The position numbers and the translations under genes were made by a program. A DNA stretch of 52,417 nt from Vibrio tasmaniensis 1F-187 (GTDB lineage Bacteria > Pseudomonadota > Gammaproteobacteria > Enterobacterales > Vibrionaceae), in the NCBI RefSeq assembly GCF_000272405.2, contig NZ_AJZM02000153.1, positions 39,641 to 92,057 on the forward strand, read 5' to 3'. The notes beneath the pieces were generated by a model. The model ran no database searches. It saw only the letters and a program-made list of their open reading frames with translations, and was not told the DNA's origin. Below are positions 13,060 through 20,759 of this stretch, piece by piece. Position 1 is the first letter of the stretch, and each line of letters begins with the position of its first letter.

Positions 13060-14145
13060 ATGAAGACAGTATCAAAAGCCATCGGCCTATCATGTTTGGC
13101 GTTGTTGACAGCCTGTAAAGACAAAGGTGTCACTGAAGTCGAAAAGCTTCCTCTTGTTAAAGCCATTGAAATCTCCGTCTTAGACTTTAACGATAAACTC
13201 TATTTTCCAGCAGTGGCTAATGCTGCTGAGAAAGCGCACCTAAGTTTCCGTGTCGCTGGTGAGATTTTTAAACTTGATGTCAAAGAAGGTGAACAAGTTA
13301 AAAAGGGTGATGTTCTTGCCGAGTTAGATCCAACAGATTATCAGTTGGACGTTGATAACGCTCAAGCTCGATACACAGTGATTAACAGCCAATACAGACG
13401 TTCAAGTCCGTTGGTCAAAAAGGGGTTATTGGCTAAGTCTCAATTCGATGAGATTGCCGCTCAGCGTCAAATCGCTTATGCCGAGTTAGAATTGGCAAAA
13501 CTGCGTTTGTCATTTACTAAGCTTCGCGCACCGGTTGATGGAATTATCTCTCGTGTCAGTGTTGACCAATACGAAAATATTCAGGTTGGCCAACAGATTG
13601 TGAATATTCACAGTGTTGAGGATGTTGAAGTTGTTATCCAATTGCCTGACCAAATCTATGTAAATCAACCAAATGAAGCGACTATCTCGAATATTGAGGC
13701 AGTAGTTAGAGTTCCAAGTGGGAATGAATACAGTGCGGGGATAAAAGAGTTTACGACTGAACCCGATCCAAACACAGGTACATTTACCGTCACGCTTGCT
13801 TTGCCTATGCCAGAAGATGATTTGATTCTTGACGGTATGGCCGTTGAGGTCACGTCAAATGGGCGTGATATCGGGTTGAAATTAAAAGCCGGCGTACTTA
13901 TTCCTATTGAGGCTGTGTTCAATGCCGATGGGGATGAGTTAACTCGTCAAAACTCTTACGTGTGGATTCTTAATGACGACAATACAGTATCTAAACAGCA
14001 AGTCGTATTAGGCAAAGCGAATCAGAAAACATTGCAGATAATCAAAGGATTAGAAATGGGGCAGCATGTCGTTGTTGCAGGCGTATCGCGATTGCGAGAT
14101 GGGATGACAGTGGAAGTATTGTCTCAGGAGACGAACAATGAGTGA
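13060..14145 (+). CDS. RND efflux periplasmic adaptor lipoprotein (second of two)
   Basis: A second membrane-fusion protein of 361 residues, only distantly similar to the first. The start at ATG 13060 has GGAAAGGGGG upstream and gives lipobox LTAC. Lipoyl halves (IFKLDVKEGEQVKKGDVLAELDPTDY and FTKLRAPVDGIISRV) flank the hairpin. The proximal frame extension to 13018 runs through the previous gene and is rejected. Two different adaptors with one pump resemble TriABC of Pseudomonas and VexIJK-type systems of Vibrio, where both adaptors are needed. Confidence 0.88.
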   Translation: MKTVSKAIGLSCLALLTACKDKGVTEVEKLPLVKAIEISVLDFNDKLYFPAVANAAEKAHLSFRVAGEIFKLDVKEGEQVKKGDVLAELDPTDYQLDVDNAQARYTVINSQYRRSSPLVKKGLLAKSQFDEIAAQRQIAYAELELAKLRLSFTKLRAPVDGIISRVSVDQYENIQVGQQIVNIHSVEDVEVVIQLPDQIYVNQPNEATISNIEAVVRVPSGNEYSAGIKEFTTEPDPNTGTFTVTLALPMPEDDLILDGMAVEVTSNGRDIGLKLKAGVLIPIEAVFNADGDELTRQNSYVWILNDDNTVSKQQVVLGKANQKTLQIIKGLEMGQHVVVAGVSRLRDGMTVEVLSQETNNE

Positions 14146-17100
14146 AGTCAATAACAAACCCCAAAGTGATGATCAACAGGGTGATGACCAAATCACTGGA
14201 GTGGCGGCTTATTTTATACGAAATAAGGTCATTAGCTGGATGCTATCACTGATCTTTCTTATTGGTGGTGTGTCTGCATTCTTTGGTTTGGGCCGTTTAG
14301 AAGATCCTGCCTTTACCATCAAAGATGCCATGGTAGTGACCTCTTATCCGGGAGCGACGCCTCAGCAAGTGGAAGAGGAAGTGACTTACCCATTAGAGAA
14401 AGCGATTCAACAGCTTACCTATGTTGATGAAGTTAACTCTATCTCTAGTCGTGGCCTGTCTCAGGTTACGGTAACGATGAAGAATAATTACGGCCCTGAT
14501 GATCTTCCACAAATTTGGGATGAACTTCGACGTAAAGTGAATGATTTGAAAGGTCAACTTCCACCCGGGGTAAATGACCCTCAAGTCATAGACGATTTTG
14601 GTGATGTTTACGGTATTTTGCTTGCCGTAACGGGGGACGGTTACAGTTACAAAGAGTTACTTGATTACATTGATTACCTAAGGCGAGAGCTAGAACTTGT
14701 TGATGGGGTCAGTAAAGTCTCGGTATCCGGCCAACAGCAAGAGCAAGTGTTCATTGAGATATCGATGAAACGGATCAGCTCTCTGGGTTTGTCTCCAAAT
14801 ACTGTATTTAACCTTTTATCCACTCAAAATATTGTTTCAAGTGCAGGTGCTGTAAGGATTGGTGACGAGTACATTCGAATCCATCCAACAGGAGAGTTCC
14901 AGAATGTTGAACAGCTCGGTGATTTGATTCTTACGGAAGGTGGCGCTCAAGGGCTTATCTATCTAAAAGATGTGGCGAATGTAACTCGTGGTTATGTTGA
15001 AGTGCCTACTAACATCATTGGCTATAACGGGAAGCTCGCACTTAACCTTGGTGTTTCTTTTGCACAAGGCGTGAACGTGGTCGCAGTGGGCGAAGCCTTT
15101 GACCGAAGGCTCGCCGAGCTGAAATACCAACAGCCCGTAGGTATTGACATATCAGAGGTTTATAACCAACCCAAAGAAGTCGATAAGTCAGTTAGTGGAT
15201 TTGTAGTGAGTTTAGGACAAGCGGTTGCGATCGTAATCGTAGTGTTACTGTTCTTTATGGGGTTACGCTCTGGCCTGTTGATTGGTTTGATACTGCTGTT
15301 GACCGTATTCGGTACCTTCATTTTCATGCAGTACTTCAAGATCGACCTTCAACGTATTTCATTGGGCGCGTTGGTTATCGCGCTGGGGATGCTGGTGGAT
15401 AATGCCATTGTGGTGGTGGAAGGGATATTGATCGGCACGCAGAAGGGGCGAACCCGAATGCAGGCCGCTACAGATATTGTGACCCAAACTAAATGGCCAC
15501 TGCTTGGTGCAACGGTTATTGCGGTCACCGCTTTTGCTCCAATTGGTTTGTCTGAAGACTCGACGGGCGAATATTGTGGCACCTTGTTCACGGTTCTACT
15601 TATCTCCTTGATGCTGAGTTGGTTTACGGCCATCTCACTCACGCCATTCTTTGCCGATATGTTCTTCAAAGGTCAAAAGGTTGACCCAGATAGTGAAGGT
15701 AAAGACCCATACAACGGGATGGTTTTTGTTATCTATAAAAACTTCCTTGAGTTTTGTATGAAGCGTGCGTGGTTAACCATGTTTGTGTTGGTCATTGGTT
15801 TAGGCGCGAGCGTTTATGGTTTTGGCTTCGTAAAACAAGCCTTTTTCCCATCTTCAACCACGCCGATGTTCCAAGTTGATGTCTGGATGCCGGAAGGTAC
15901 GGATATTCGAGCGACCAACACCAAACTGAAAGTACTGGAAAGTTGGTTAGCAGAGCAGGACGAAGTTGAACATATCACGACAACGGCGGGTAAAGGTCTG
16001 CAACGTTTCATGCTGACTTATGCGCCAGAGAAAAGTTATAGCGCATACGGTGAGATAACGGTTCGTGTGAAGAGTTATGAAGTACTTGAAGGTTTGATGT
16101 TGCGCTTTCGTGAGCATGTAAACGGCCAGTTCCCTGAAATTAATTACAAACTTAAACAGATCGAATTAGGTCCTGGTGGCGGTGCTAAAATTGAAGCGCG
16201 AATTGTGGGTTCTGATCCAACGGTTTTACGTTCAATCGCAGCTCAAGTTATGGACATCATGCGTGCTGACAATGGGTCGTTTAACGTTCGTCACGATTGG
16301 CGTGAAAGAACTAAGGTACTGGAACCTCAGTTCAACGAAAGCCAAGCGCGTCGTTATGGTATTACCAAATCTGACGTTGATGATTTCCTAGCGATGTCTT
16401 TCTCTGGTAAGTCGATTGGTGTGTATCGTGATGGTACTACGCTGATGCCTATTGTGGCTCGTTTACCTGAAGATGAGCGAATTGATATTCGCAACATCGA
16501 AGGTATGAAGATTTGGAGCCCGGCATTAAGTGAATACATCCCACTACAACAAGTAACACTAGGCTACGAATTGGAATGGGAAGATCCACTGATCATCCGT
16601 AAGAACCGTAAGCGTATGCTGACGGTAATGGCGGATCCTGACCTACTGGGTGAAGAGACAGCATCAACTTTACAGAAACGCTTACAGCCACAAATAGAAG
16701 CGATTGAGATGCCACCGGGTTATTCATTGGAATGGGGTGGTGAATACGAGTCGTCAGCTGACGCTCAAGCGTCACTGTTCACAACTATGCCGTTAGGCTA
16801 CTTGTTCATGTTCTTAATCACGGTGTTCTTGTTTAATTCGGTGAAAGAGCCCCTGATTGTTTGGTTAACGGTACCACTCGCCTTGATAGGGGTAACGACA
16901 GGCTTGCTAGCCTTGAATACACCGTTCGGTTTTATGGCACTTCTGGGCTTCTTGAGTTTGTCTGGAATGCTTCTGAAGAACGGTATCGTACTGCTTGATC
17001 AAATTGAGATTGAGATGAAGTCAGGTAAAGACCCATATATAGCGGTTGTTGATGCGGCATTGAGTCGTGTACGTCCTGTATGTATGGCGGCTATCACAAC

Positions 17101-17248
17101 GATTCTCGGTATGATTCCATTGTTACCGGATATCTTCTTCAAGCCAATGGCGGTAACCATCATGTTTGGTTTGGGCTTCGCCACCGTACTGACGCTAATC
17201 GTGGTACCTGTGCTGTATCGTCTATTCCATAAAATTGAAGTCTCGTAA
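14138..17248 (+). CDS. RND multidrug efflux pump (AcrB/HAE1-like)
   Basis: Inner-membrane proton-driven pump of 1036 residues, normal AcrB length, with 12 expected helices in two repeats and large periplasmic porter loops. Visible marks are the first helix (VISWMLSLIFLIGGVSAFFGLG), the early loop YPGATPQQVEEEVTYPLE, and the TM4 motif GMLVDNAIVVVEGI. The usual proton-relay Asp-Asp pair is Asp-Asn there, as in other non-AcrB members. The C-terminal repeat has LSLSGMLLKNGIVLLDQIEIE. The start overlaps the second adaptor by eight bases. No outer-membrane channel gene is present, so TolC is presumably shared. Substrates cannot be read from the sequence. Confidence 0.92.
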   Translation: MSEVNNKPQSDDQQGDDQITGVAAYFIRNKVISWMLSLIFLIGGVSAFFGLGRLEDPAFTIKDAMVVTSYPGATPQQVEEEVTYPLEKAIQQLTYVDEVNSISSRGLSQVTVTMKNNYGPDDLPQIWDELRRKVNDLKGQLPPGVNDPQVIDDFGDVYGILLAVTGDGYSYKELLDYIDYLRRELELVDGVSKVSVSGQQQEQVFIEISMKRISSLGLSPNTVFNLLSTQNIVSSAGAVRIGDEYIRIHPTGEFQNVEQLGDLILTEGGAQGLIYLKDVANVTRGYVEVPTNIIGYNGKLALNLGVSFAQGVNVVAVGEAFDRRLAELKYQQPVGIDISEVYNQPKEVDKSVSGFVVSLGQAVAIVIVVLLFFMGLRSGLLIGLILLLTVFGTFIFMQYFKIDLQRISLGALVIALGMLVDNAIVVVEGILIGTQKGRTRMQAATDIVTQTKWPLLGATVIAVTAFAPIGLSEDSTGEYCGTLFTVLLISLMLSWFTAISLTPFFADMFFKGQKVDPDSEGKDPYNGMVFVIYKNFLEFCMKRAWLTMFVLVIGLGASVYGFGFVKQAFFPSSTTPMFQVDVWMPEGTDIRATNTKLKVLESWLAEQDEVEHITTTAGKGLQRFMLTYAPEKSYSAYGEITVRVKSYEVLEGLMLRFREHVNGQFPEINYKLKQIELGPGGGAKIEARIVGSDPTVLRSIAAQVMDIMRADNGSFNVRHDWRERTKVLEPQFNESQARRYGITKSDVDDFLAMSFSGKSIGVYRDGTTLMPIVARLPEDERIDIRNIEGMKIWSPALSEYIPLQQVTLGYELEWEDPLIIRKNRKRMLTVMADPDLLGEETASTLQKRLQPQIEAIEMPPGYSLEWGGEYESSADAQASLFTTMPLGYLFMFLITVFLFNSVKEPLIVWLTVPLALIGVTTGLLALNTPFGFMALLGFLSLSGMLLKNGIVLLDQIEIEMKSGKDPYIAVVDAALSRVRPVCMAAITTILGMIPLLPDIFFKPMAVTIMFGLGFATVLTLIVVPVLYRLFHKIEVS

Positions 17249-17269
17249 GACGAGTGAGTCTTTGAATTA

Positions 17270-17326: not shown

Positions 17327-17893
17327 ATGGAAACAAACACTGAAGGTAGAACGTGTGCATGGGCACTGAAGCACGAACTGGAAAGGGAGTACCACGACGC
17401 AGAGTGGGGCGTGCCTGTTTATGATGACCAAGTTCTGTTTGAGTTCATTACTTTAGAAGGCGCTCAGGCGGGCCTGAGTTGGATTACGATCCTTAAAAAG
17501 CGCGAAGGCTATCGTGCTGCCTTTGATAATTACGATCTAAACAAGTTAGCCGAATTGAATGAAGACAATGTGCCACACGTCATAGAGAACTTTGATGTGG
17601 TTAAGCATAAAGGCAAGATTGCCTCTGTGTATAACAACGCTCGAGCAACGCTTGAACTGCAGAAAGAGTTTGGTTCTCTTTCAAACGCCTTATGGCAATT
17701 TGTCGATAACAAGGTGATCGAAAACCACTGGATTGAGATGACTCAAGTTCCCGCTTCTACCGAGCAATCCAAAGCGATGAGTAAGTTTTTGAAGAAGAGA
17801 GGCTTTAAGTTTGTTGGGGAAACAATCTGTTACGCGTTAATGCAAGCGACAGGTATGGTTAATGACCATTTAGAAGGTTGCCCACATAAATAA
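17327..17893 (+). CDS. tag: DNA-3-methyladenine glycosylase I
   Basis: Base-excision repair enzyme that removes 3-methyladenine from alkylated DNA. 188 residues, family length. The N-terminal RTCAWA with Cys10, the block EYHDAEWGVPVYDDQVLFEFITLEGAQAGLSW, and the C-terminal MVNDHLEGCPH carry the Cys/His residues that bind the structural zinc in Tag. Catalytic-pocket residues fall in the block around residues 22-50. It stands alone after the RND terminator; no Ada-type regulation signal is visible. Confidence 0.95.
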   Translation: METNTEGRTCAWALKHELEREYHDAEWGVPVYDDQVLFEFITLEGAQAGLSWITILKKREGYRAAFDNYDLNKLAELNEDNVPHVIENFDVVKHKGKIASVYNNARATLELQKEFGSLSNALWQFVDNKVIENHWIEMTQVPASTEQSKAMSKFLKKRGFKFVGETICYALMQATGMVNDHLEGCPHK

Positions 17894-18002
17894 AGGTGTT
17901 ATTTCTCGACGCGAAATAATTGTGTGTAAATTGAAAAATTCACTGGTCATTTATAAACTTTTCAATATTATATGCGACCAAATTCAAATGTAGACAACGA
18001 TA

Positions 18003-19025
18003 GTGAATCAACAAAACTACCAAATATGTGATGCTAACTATGATCCCTTGCTTAGGCAGTTTATGCGTGAGGATGGCCACGTAGAAACTATCGCGCCGCT
18101 AGAAGGTAAAGTGTTCCTATTCTTGCTTGAAAATACAGGCGAATGCATTGAGCGAGGCCTGATCTTTGATAGATGTTGGGGGGATGTGATTGTCTCTGAG
18201 CAAGCGTTGACCAACGTGATATCTAAGCTTAGAAAAACACTGAACAGAGTGACTTGTGGTTGCGCCACGATTCGTACCGTCAGTAAAATGGGGTATTCTC
18301 TGGAGATAGAGGAATCATCTCAACCTCAAAATACAGAGCCTAAAGCGACAGTCCCTGAGGCGGATTTAGTATCAGAGTCTCCTCAAACGATAGGATTATC
18401 GCAAGCCGAACTTAACCCATCATCAATAACGACAAATCAAACACAAACCTCAGGCGAGTCACCTGAGAAAAAGCCGCAAGATGAGCAGGCTCATGTTATG
18501 CCTGCATCAGTAACACAAAGCGTTGAAGGCGACATGGAAATGCCATTGTCCACAGTTAGCCCGAGAGGTTCAGTCAACGCGGTACCACCTAGCTTTAAGC
18601 TTTTTGTTCATCGTCATTTAGCCTGCGTGGGCTACTTTTTAGCCTTTACCTGTGTGTTGATCTCTTTGTTTAATATATTTCAGGCTTACTATCAGCCATT
18701 GCCATACTTTGTTGATAAAAGTGAGTATCACGACAGCTTCGTAGATGAAACTAATCACTACTTTTTCCATATTGTTCGCAATGAAGCCTACTCGTTGCCT
18801 GCGATCACTGAGAGACTGATACAAGTTATACCTAGCCACTGTAATGTTGATGTTTTTGTTCGCATTTATCCATCTGTCAACCAACCTGAAAATGATGCTT
18901 TGTATATGCTAATTGAGAGAAAGGATGGCGAAGCTCTTAATTACTTGTCATCTATTTTTGAAGTTGAGTCATCTTTTGATTCGTTTGTGAATTACATGGC
19001 TCAAAGGAGTTACTTTTGCGAATAA
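18003..19025 (+). CDS. ToxR-like membrane-bound winged-helix transcriptional regulator
   Basis: One-component sensor of 340 residues. Cytoplasmic winged helix at about 25-100: ends with VIVSEQALTNVISKLRKTL (recognition helix) and TIRTVSKMGYSL (wing). A Ser/Thr/Pro/Gln-rich linker covers about 100-200. A single transmembrane helix lies near 207-228 (VGYFLAFTCVLISLFNIF). The periplasmic domain of about 110 residues has two cysteines, Cys280 and Cys339, 59 residues apart; V. cholerae ToxR has a similar periplasmic pair (Cys236, Cys293). GTG is the start, since no in-frame ATG precedes the domain; its ribosome site is weak. The 3' end overlaps a small ToxS/VtrC-like gene. This is not ToxR itself; the target genes and signal are unknown. 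Confidence 0.88.
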   Translation: MNQQNYQICDANYDPLLRQFMREDGHVETIAPLEGKVFLFLLENTGECIERGLIFDRCWGDVIVSEQALTNVISKLRKTLNRVTCGCATIRTVSKMGYSLEIEESSQPQNTEPKATVPEADLVSESPQTIGLSQAELNPSSITTNQTQTSGESPEKKPQDEQAHVMPASVTQSVEGDMEMPLSTVSPRGSVNAVPPSFKLFVHRHLACVGYFLAFTCVLISLFNIFQAYYQPLPYFVDKSEYHDSFVDETNHYFFHIVRNEAYSLPAITERLIQVIPSHCNVDVFVRIYPSVNQPENDALYMLIERKDGEALNYLSSIFEVESSFDSFVNYMAQRSYFCE

Positions 19026-19489
19026 TTGGTTTGCTATTGGTATTAGCACTCACAGCTGCAAGTTTCATGATTGATAGAAACGTACTCGCGGGCACTCGTT
19101 GGCACTGTAAAACCATCAAAACGGGCTTTATGACGCAGGCATTTCAACCTTATCAATCGTTGTATGAACGTATGACTTTTACCTTCCAATCAGACAATAC
19201 GTTTATGATTGCAGAGGCGGTAAAGATTGAAGAGAAGGATGGTCAGGTGAGTAAATTGGAGCACCACTCCTCAGGTCGTTATTCGTTAGAAGATGGCGAG
19301 TTGTCTATCTCTATCATTGATTATTCGCCGACAACTGAAACTGATGACCCTGTGATTAATCGAGAGTATAGCTCGTATAAGGGGCTGAATATTGATTACT
19401 CAGTTGTTGTCACCGATGACTCACTCTATTTATTTAATAAAAATCGTTTCGAAATTTTTAATTGGGTATGTTTTAAGGTTCAGAAGTAG
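19016..19489 (+). CDS. Small single-pass periplasmic partner protein (ToxS/VtrC-like)
   Basis: 157 residues: an N-terminal membrane helix (IIGLLLVLALTAASFMI) and a periplasmic part rich in beta strands. The pattern GTRWHC ... FTFQSDNTFMIAEA ... GRYSLEDGELSISI ... FNWVCFKV resembles a lipocalin-like barrel, the fold of VtrC. Cys31 and Cys152 sit in the first and last strands and could form a disulfide. The start is TTG, 10 bases inside the preceding gene, with GGAG six bases upstream, so it is translationally coupled. By analogy to ToxS and VtrC it would stabilise or sense ligand with the ToxR-like protein. The assignment is by architecture and context, not by a sequence search. Confidence 0.7.
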   Translation: MRIIGLLLVLALTAASFMIDRNVLAGTRWHCKTIKTGFMTQAFQPYQSLYERMTFTFQSDNTFMIAEAVKIEEKDGQVSKLEHHSSGRYSLEDGELSISIIDYSPTTETDDPVINREYSSYKGLNIDYSVVVTDDSLYLFNKNRFEIFNWVCFKVQK

Positions 19490-19522: not shown

Positions 19523-19552
19523 TAAAAAAGGCAGGTTGTCCCTGCCTTTTGT
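19523..19552. terminator. Bidirectional terminator between the ToxR-like operon and metC
   Basis: AAAAGGCAGG and CCTGCCTTTT pair over TTGTC. A-runs and T-runs on both sides suit termination of both convergent transcripts. Confidence 0.88.
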
Positions 19553-19574: not shown

Positions 19575-20759
19575 TTAAACCAGAGCGTTGTAACGATCTA
19601 GTCCAGCATCTAGATCCGCAATCAGGTCATCGACGTCTTCTAAGCCGATATGAACGCGTATCAAGGTTCCTTCGAAGTTAGGGTTCGCTACCGTTCTCAA
19701 GCTATTAAAGCTGCTCGGTTCGTTCGCTAGAATCAAACTTTCAAATCCACCCCATGAGTAACCCATACTAAAGTGCGTCATACCATCAAGCAGCGCTGTG
19801 GTCGCTTTTGTGTTTGAGTTCTTAAGAACGAAAGAGAACAAACCATTACCGCCAGTGAAGTCTCGTTTGAAGAATTCATGACCGGGACAAGACTCAAGGG
19901 CAGGGTGACGAACATGGTCAACCTCAGGGCGTGTTTCTAACCACTTTGCTACTTTTAGGCTGCTTTCAGCATGTTGGCGAAGTCGAACGTCAAGAGTGCG
20001 AATACCGCGAAGACCAAGATAAGCGTCATCTGGAGATACGCACTGTCCCATCAAGTAACTCTGCTCTCTCAGTTGATCCCAACATTTTTCGTTGGCTACT
20101 GCAGTTCCTAGCATCACATCAGAGTGACCAACAATGTATTTAGTCGCCGCTTGAATTGAGATGTCGACGCCAAAATCGAACGGTGAGAAGTTAACACCAG
20201 CCGCCCACGTGTTATCGAGCATTACAATGATGTCATGTTCATGGGCAATACGTGCGAGTGTTGGGATGTCTTGAACTTCCATGGTGACTGAACCCGGAGA
20301 CTCAGTAAATAGAACCTTAGTATTTGGCTTAATAAGGTCTTGGATACCTTCACCGATCGTTGGCTCGTAGTAAGTGGTCTCTACACCCATCTTTTTCATT
20401 ATGGTGTCACAGAAATCACGAGTGGGTTCGTAACAGGTATCGACCATCAGAATATGGTCACCTGTTTCAACAAAAGAGAGGATGGCATTAGAGATGGCTG
20501 CCGTACCACAAGGGTAAAGTGCGCAACCTACACCACCTTCAACTTCAACCATTGCATCTTGAAATGCGAAATGAGTCGTGGTGCCACGGCGTCCGTAGAA
20601 AAGTGTCTTGTTAGCGCGGTTGATGGTCGCTTTGCGTTTCTCTTCTACTGTGTTGAACACGACAGTTGAAGCGCGTTGTACTGGTGGGTTAACGACACCA
20701 TTAGTCCACTTCTTATCACGACCTGCAGTGATCAGTTTAGTGGTTTTGTTCTCGGACAT
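19575..20759 (-). CDS. metC: Cystathionine beta-lyase
   Basis: PLP enzyme of the methionine pathway: cystathionine to homocysteine, pyruvate and ammonia. 394 residues. The PLP lysine is Lys207 in SIQAATKYIVGHSDVMLG. The phosphate and substrate pocket includes YGRRGTTTHFAFQ and YPCGTAAISNA. MetC rather than MetB is favoured by the overall MetC-type sequence (FYGRRGTTTH, RQHAESSLKVAKWLETRPEVDHVRHPAL). It is monocistronic, convergent with the ToxR-like operon. I found no convincing MetJ box upstream. Confidence 0.93.
   Translation of the reverse strand: MSENKTTKLITAGRDKKWTNGVVNPPVQRASTVVFNTVEEKRKATINRANKTLFYGRRGTTTHFAFQDAMVEVEGGVGCALYPCGTAAISNAILSFVETGDHILMVDTCYEPTRDFCDTIMKKMGVETTYYEPTIGEGIQDLIKPNTKVLFTESPGSVTMEVQDIPTLARIAHEHDIIVMLDNTWAAGVNFSPFDFGVDISIQAATKYIVGHSDVMLGTAVANEKCWDQLREQSYLMGQCVSPDDAYLGLRGIRTLDVRLRQHAESSLKVAKWLETRPEVDHVRHPALESCPGHEFFKRDFTGGNGLFSFVLKNSNTKATTALLDGMTHFSMGYSWGGFESLILANEPSSFNSLRTVANPNFEGTLIRVHIGLEDVDDLIADLDAGLDRYNALV

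Follow-up and report, generated by a model that had tools for sequence, protein, structure and literature searches.

The window analysed here, a 52,417-nucleotide stretch of Vibrio tasmaniensis 1F-187 (contig NZ_AJZM02000153.1, positions 39,641 to 92,057), carries a two-gene cassette between tag and a metC-like gene that, taken as a whole, is likely to be a co-component transmembrane transcription regulator of the VtrAC/ToxRS superfamily. That the two products, a regulator and its small partner, form a co-component system is very probable. As judged from sequence and structure prediction, the regulator has an OmpR/PhoB/CadC-type winged helix, a single membrane helix and a cysteine in its C-terminal region, and its gene overlaps a downstream gene for an anchored eight-stranded partner, all of which are features of the superfamily. 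Work on ToxRS and VtrAC has treated them as switches for virulence in human pathogens, and the same device occurs in many other Vibrionaceae. The window's family looks uncharacterised, while its kind is already known; what goes beyond the superfamily is the family's broad distribution in Vibrionaceae, a candidate target linked to most paralogous loci, and an allele conflict at a fixed site.

The partner begins with a membrane helix (hydropathy 2.33 at residue 1, next best 0.45), and its AlphaFold2 model (predicted local distance difference test, pLDDT, 80.7) has eight strands, with ToxS and VtrC as the closest PDB structures. The model thus bears out the lipocalin-like barrel that an earlier sequence-only reading of this DNA had proposed for the small membrane protein. 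Sequence searches returned no above-cut-off match for the partner in Pfam or NCBIfam (Pfam Lipocalin_4, at E 0.022, was below cut-off), and a PDB search with a profile of 18 aligned partners (A1) was empty up to E 10.

The two genes overlap by 10 nt in the window, and the partner TTG start (19016-19018) has two bases in common with the TGC codon of Cys339 (19017-19019). Orthologues are defined here as the 30 strong matches to A1, and all 30 of their loci retain an overlap on the last-cysteine codon, with TTG as the start in 27 and ATG in three. The paralogous loci come from 46 loci selected among the non-orthologue matches of the genus, family and order searches, with L203 and L204 excluded for want of an intact pair; since many rows represent close relatives, the counts are not independent events. 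Overlapping same-strand genes are present in 37 of the remaining 44 (the split L079 counted), and in 33 of these 37 pairs the listed start lies on the cysteine codon. L138 and L205 have a GTG on that codon, with an earlier ATG yielding a longer open reading frame (ORF), and L074 and L139 have no start there. A tendency of the second gene to start on the cysteine codon is described for TcpP/TcpH, PsaE/PsaF and others (Kinch et al. 2022, PMC9214523); judged by that description, the start in TcpP/TcpH and PsaE/PsaF lies one nucleotide upstream of the codon, as in the window.

The winged helix of the regulator matches Pfam Trans_reg_C (PF00486, E 6.1e-10) and, among PDB sequences, CadC (1.6e-5) and V. 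cholerae ToxR (1.9e-4). There is one membrane helix, with 19-residue hydropathy peaking at 2.11 (residue 208) and not exceeding 1.02 elsewhere, and a structure model has a helix at 196-230 that matches this position. A winged-helix regulator with one membrane helix, as earlier described, is therefore confirmed. The linker between them has few conserved columns in an alignment of 24 regulators (A2). Against six type-B loci it has 42-47% nucleotide identity, where the winged helix has 82-85%, and against V. fortis the values are 47.7% and 71.9%, respectively.

Cys280 and Cys339 of the regulator and Cys31 and Cys152 of the partner, located correctly in the sequence-only reading, are invariant in the 24 aligned regulators and 18 aligned partners. 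In the wider comparison, the regulator periplasmic pair is present in 61 of 62 regulators (the exception being the split ORF of L079) and both partner cysteines in 60 of 61 partners (L137 lacks the second). Cys339 is residue 339 of 340, and its equivalent is found in 61 of the 62 family regulators. In the partner model Cys31 lies in strand 27-33 and Cys152 in strand 150-154, the first and last strands of the predicted barrel. A cysteine in the C-terminal region of the regulator, near its C-terminus in members except VtrA, and a pair on the N- and C-terminal strands of the partner are described as common in the superfamily (PMC9214523). The periplasmic cysteines of both proteins are read most simply as structural disulfides, with the bonds themselves putative.

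The partner fold, the overlap at the cysteine codon and the cysteine positions support placement in the ToxRS/TcpPH/VtrAC class, as had been suggested from the architecture. Several results weigh against this reading. Confidence in the regulator model is low overall (pLDDT 49.4, falling to 28-40 in blocks of the winged helix), a match of its periplasmic part to VtrA is tied in this poor model with ribosome hibernation factors, and Foldseek gave zero matches at E <= 0.001. The partner family aligned to the single ToxS sequence of the window's genome with an hhalign probability of 2.8%, and a broader partner profile (A3) aligned to a single E. coli YqeJ sequence, a weak test, with 0.4%. ToxR chains were missing from the structural matches of the regulator, which carries no weight either way. 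The model is consistent with a VtrA-like fold of the periplasmic domain and not decisive for it.

The pair differs from the known systems in several ways. A reading as the ToxRS orthologue was rejected, since a ToxRS-like pair lies elsewhere in the window's genome (L186), beside an htpG-like gene; we take this pair to be ToxRS. Its ToxS has no cysteine, its toxR/toxS overlap differs from that of the window pair, and the window's partner lacks sequence similarity to it. VtrA/VtrC, the bile sensor of V. parahaemolyticus type III secretion system 2 (T3SS2), is set apart by the location of the window pair between tag and metC, and VtrA, by the account in PMC9214523, lacks the cysteine pair of the window regulator. 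The FidL/YqeJ-type co-components (MarT/FidL, YqeI/YqeJ, GrvA/FidL) have partner cysteines in the first and last strand, as in the window partner, and E. coli YqeJ Cys37/Cys158 has the same 121-residue spacing as Cys31/Cys152. Because there is no profile similarity to YqeJ, the window partner is not filed in that sequence family. The survey of Kinch et al. (2022, PMC9214523) covered 18 pathogen genomes, and its main text has no occurrence of 'splendidus'; the open-access literature searched gave no description of the window's cassette. The earlier claim of an undescribed signalling system thus holds for the window's family alone and not for the superfamily, which that survey already describes.

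Proposed ligand sensing and rival mechanisms

Signalling may proceed by analogy with VtrAC and ToxRS. In the regulator, a single membrane helix separates a cytoplasmic winged helix from a periplasmic domain, and the partner is a predicted ToxS/VtrC-like barrel anchored in the membrane; the periplasmic domains would heterodimerise such that a sheet of the regulator completes the partner barrel. A small hydrophobic molecule (a fatty acid, a bile-like sterol or another lipid) would enter the barrel beneath a lid loop and stabilise or re-orient the regulator, which would bind promoters from the membrane. ToxS and VtrC are reported to bind bile acid inside the barrel (PMC9214523, PMC10624426). Sensing of a hydrophobic ligand in the barrel together with heterodimer signalling is, on this analogy, favoured to a modest degree.

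The partner may instead be a stability factor only, one that shields the regulator from periplasmic proteolysis and senses the membrane state through its helix, with no ligand in the barrel. TcpH is reported to inhibit proteolysis of TcpP, and alpha-linolenic acid to work via the TcpH transmembrane domain (PMC11323476), and the window's partner does have an N-terminal membrane helix. However, just 2 of the 48 invariant columns in A1 lie before residue 24, which favours a function in the barrel, and the nearest folds are those of the bile acid-binding ToxS and VtrC. This role for the partner is unlikely, if still the strongest competitor to ligand sensing.

Redox sensing, to which the earlier reading took the cysteines to point, would have the making and breaking of Cys280-Cys339 and Cys31-Cys152 as the signal, with a cysteine-rich winged helix adding a cytoplasmic thiol or metal input. 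The near-invariance of the periplasmic cysteines speaks for it, and so does the winged-helix part, which contains five of seven further regulator cysteines that had gone unmentioned (the other two are in the membrane helix). Among these five (Cys9, 48, 58, 85 and 87; window 18027-18263), Cys9 and Cys85 occur in all 17 window-subfamily regulators and in none of 45 others, and Cys87 in all 17 and in one of the 45, suggesting a possible thiol or metal site in the subfamily. A thiol-peroxidase-like gene also lies between the partner and the regulator, which is on the other strand, in L067-L069 (Redoxin domain in L067, the sole one tested). Cys48 is in 17 of 17 subfamily regulators and 19 of 45 others. 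Cys58 is in all 62 regulators compared, which argues against a redox role, as do the superfamily-wide positions of the periplasmic cysteines, which fit structural disulfides (PMC9214523). Because the overlap ties Cys339 to the partner start at the DNA level, its conservation is not independent evidence of redox function, and the poor regulator model gives no usable geometry for the winged-helix cysteines. The positions stand; by themselves they do not point to redox chemistry, and redox sensing was set aside as the leading explanation and retained as an improbable rival.

A CadC-like one-component regulator with an unrelated barrel protein downstream is very improbable given the overlap in all 30 orthologue and in 37 of 44 paralogous loci, a periplasmic part of about 107 residues against more than 300 in CadC chains, and the ToxS/VtrC fold of the partner.

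Family spread and the adjacent outer-membrane protein gene

Searches at E <= 1e-3 gave 131 regulator and 40 partner homologues, including the window's own near-identical protein; together with the conserved overlap, these numbers set the pair apart from a chance arrangement. The A1 profile matches 45 of 227 genus genomes, with 30 strong matches (each from a different genome, all at E 2e-79 or better) and 32 weaker ones, and the named records of orthologous pairs (12 loci) include V. splendidus, V. lentus, V. chagasii and V. fortis. The A3 profile matches 72 of 329 family genomes, in 5 of 13 genera, and 17 genomes in a 394-genome sample of the order, four of them from one genus of a second family. 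In that genus (L199-L202) regulator and partner are divergent and do not overlap. Broken copies are found among L079 (2983-3824), L198, L203 and L204 and comprise a split regulator, a tag-metC cassette remnant and partner fragments.

A small outer-membrane protein (OMP) gene adjoins the cassette in 33 of the 44 paralogous loci. It is on the opposite strand in 25 (L070-L085, L129-L137). Six loci (L140, L142-L146) have it 3' of the partner and codirectional with it, and two (L199, L201) have it 3' of the regulator and codirectional with that gene. The search model was built from 16 of these loci, which match by construction, and of the 28 other two-gene loci 17 match. The tested proteins all have OMP_b-brl and OmpA_membrane domains (5 of 5), and two of four gave AcfA-family matches below cut-off. 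There are 12 to 24 OMP_b-brl matches per genome (nine genomes), so chance adjacency should, as a rough estimate, be rare. Counting against an OMP output are the 11 paralogous loci that lack an adjacent gene and the 0 of 16 orthologue loci (only 16 searched) that have one nearby; the latter places the link with the wider family and not with the window's pair. For the wider family, a linked OMP as the principal output is moderately likely, and the neighbourhood suggests that this small OmpA/AcfA-like protein would serve in envelope remodelling. In the MarT/FidL system the activated gene encodes a surface protein, the MisL autotransporter (PMC9214523). With a candidate target next to most of the paralogous loci examined, sensing and control outside the known pathogens become directly testable.

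A winged-helix-only protein (about 104 residues, no membrane helix seen) is divergent from a small OMP gene in two genomes (L182, L188; Table), and looks like a stub or a soluble version of the regulator of a paralogous cassette.

Allele conflict at the tag-metC site

All 30 orthologue loci are at the tag-metC site. The cassette was earlier said to be part of the core chromosome, which holds for the fixed site in these 30 genomes but not for the cassette itself, since it conflicts with its flanks in trees, one genome (G209) keeps only a remnant, and 182 of the 227 genus genomes have no A1 match. G209 has a tag protein 98.9% identical to that of the window, but its site keeps only short partner-like fragments. 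In V. splendidus MOR1 (G204; L120 2290-3834) a serine-recombinase-like gene is at the place of tag, which is reduced to a C-terminal fragment, and G019 and G203 have transposase-like genes between partner and metC (L196 4462-5856; L044 2025-3268).

Identity to the window does not run parallel in cassette and flanks. G081 has a close cassette (partner 89.0%, membrane/periplasmic segment 83.1%) and distant upstream flanks (transporter 84.2%, tag 79.9%; metC 88.5%), whereas strain 14G-20 has a distant cassette (65.8% and 69.5%) and closer upstream flanks (transporter 89.1%, tag 85.9%; metC 87.5%). Both kinds of allele occur under the name V. lentus, with partners 90% (P0123) and 61% (L121) identical to that of the window.

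The trees agree with this conflict. The type-A group (G000, which is the window's genome, G213, G019 and G081) was named after the partner identities had been seen, and the tree tests are post hoc there. For the sensor half, G081, the window and G213 group with support 100/100, and a grouping of G081 with G015 and G014 is rejected (p 1e-56). The tag tree places G081 with G015 and G014 (support 99/100), and the window-type group is rejected by both metC (p 3e-5) and tag (p 5e-5). The G081, G015 and G014 group is absent from the careful metC tree yet not rejected (p 0.38), and for the winged helix neither of the competing groupings is rejected (p 0.45 and 0.06). The metC tree covers 28 of 30 rows, three of them type-A (G019 and G203 have no metC of sufficient length), and the tag tree covers 29 of 30 (G204 has no tag).

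Site patterns show where the affinity of G081 changes. The numbers of sites that it shares with the window and with G015, respectively, are 58 and 409 in the flank 14000-17249, 16 and 78 in tag, 324 and 90 in the cassette (18003-19489), 30 and 91 in metC, and 30 and 157 in the gene after it. Of the 19 segments, the control G213 agrees with the window in 18. Recombinational exchange between species, over about the length of the cassette, is the simplest reading of these sequence patterns; sorting of an old polymorphism could also account for the conflict. The site may even be a sensor-exchange locus, at which species swap cassettes by homologous recombination between the flanks, such that the overlap and the position are kept and the sensing half changes. 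Strains of one clade would then respond to different lipids or hosts from a shared chromosomal slot, and the ancestral output would be the adjacent small OMP, uncoupled in the window subfamily. This wider proposal is tentative, with a chance a little below even. The allele differences amount to a natural experiment in which different sensor halves occupy a single chromosomal position.

Locus layout and further loci

Both ORFs were found on the + strand where the sequence-only reading had placed regulator and partner, between tag (17327-17893) and the metC-like gene (19575-20759, opposite strand). The window's genome (G000) is Vibrio-like, with 5.3 Mb in 435 contigs. The names tag, metC, htpG, AraC, RND transporter, serine recombinase, transposase and, for L186, ToxRS are from by-eye recognition or are labels of the earlier reading.

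Table. Features of the cassette (window coordinates) and of two further loci (locus coordinates)
Feature	Position	Strand	Basis
Conserved block 5' of regulator, candidate promoter/operator	17942..17976	+	By-eye reading of 12 aligned upstream regions, including V. fortis and D404a
Membrane-anchored winged-helix regulator, 340 residues, GTG start	18003..19025	+	
Winged-helix DNA-binding domain, residues 30-100	18090..18302	+	PF00486, PDB sequence matches
Hypervariable cytoplasmic linker of regulator	18306..18600	+	Few conserved columns; low nucleotide identity
Single membrane helix of regulator, about residues 206-228	18618..18686	+	Hydropathy; model
Predicted periplasmic alpha/beta domain of regulator with Cys280 and Cys339	18702..19022	+	
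AGGAG ribosome-binding-like site, 6 nt 5' of partner TTG	19005..19009	+	By-eye reading
Partner TTG start overlapping TGC codon of Cys339	19016..19019	+	30/30 orthologue loci
Lipocalin-like partner, 157 residues, TTG start, membrane anchor about residues 1-19	19016..19489	+	
Predicted eight-stranded barrel of partner, residues 27-154	19094..19477	+	AlphaFold2 model
Winged-helix-only protein and small OMP gene loci	L182 3118-3483 and 3825-4460; L188 1403-2038 and 2430-2744		

A sigma-70-like match (TGGTCA-16-TATTAT, 17944-17971) lies inside the conserved block upstream of the regulator, in a scan that as a whole was at chance level (4 sites found, 4.1 expected). A purine-rich stretch is present at the AGGAG position in most orthologue contexts. 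A hairpin-like stretch at 19524-19550, by eye a possible terminator, is absent from the scan output.

PADLOC gave zero anti-phage defence matches for regulator or partner at E 1e-3. When the partner was compared by tblastn with 72,556 plasmid records, the single match (27% identity) fell in a V. campbellii replicon of 2.06 Mb filed as a plasmid (NZ_CP050465.1 1427511-1427987), where it is unannotated in the PLSDB gene table, itself incomplete.

The window's genome has further pairs of this general layout. L185 (G000:C377, 621-1906) has another winged-helix membrane regulator whose gene overlaps that of a small membrane protein, and the latter has no profile similarity to the window's partner family. 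At L184 (G000:C305, 334-2817) two tandem regulator/partner-like pairs precede an AraC-like regulator; the partner of the second pair, the one compared, likewise has none.
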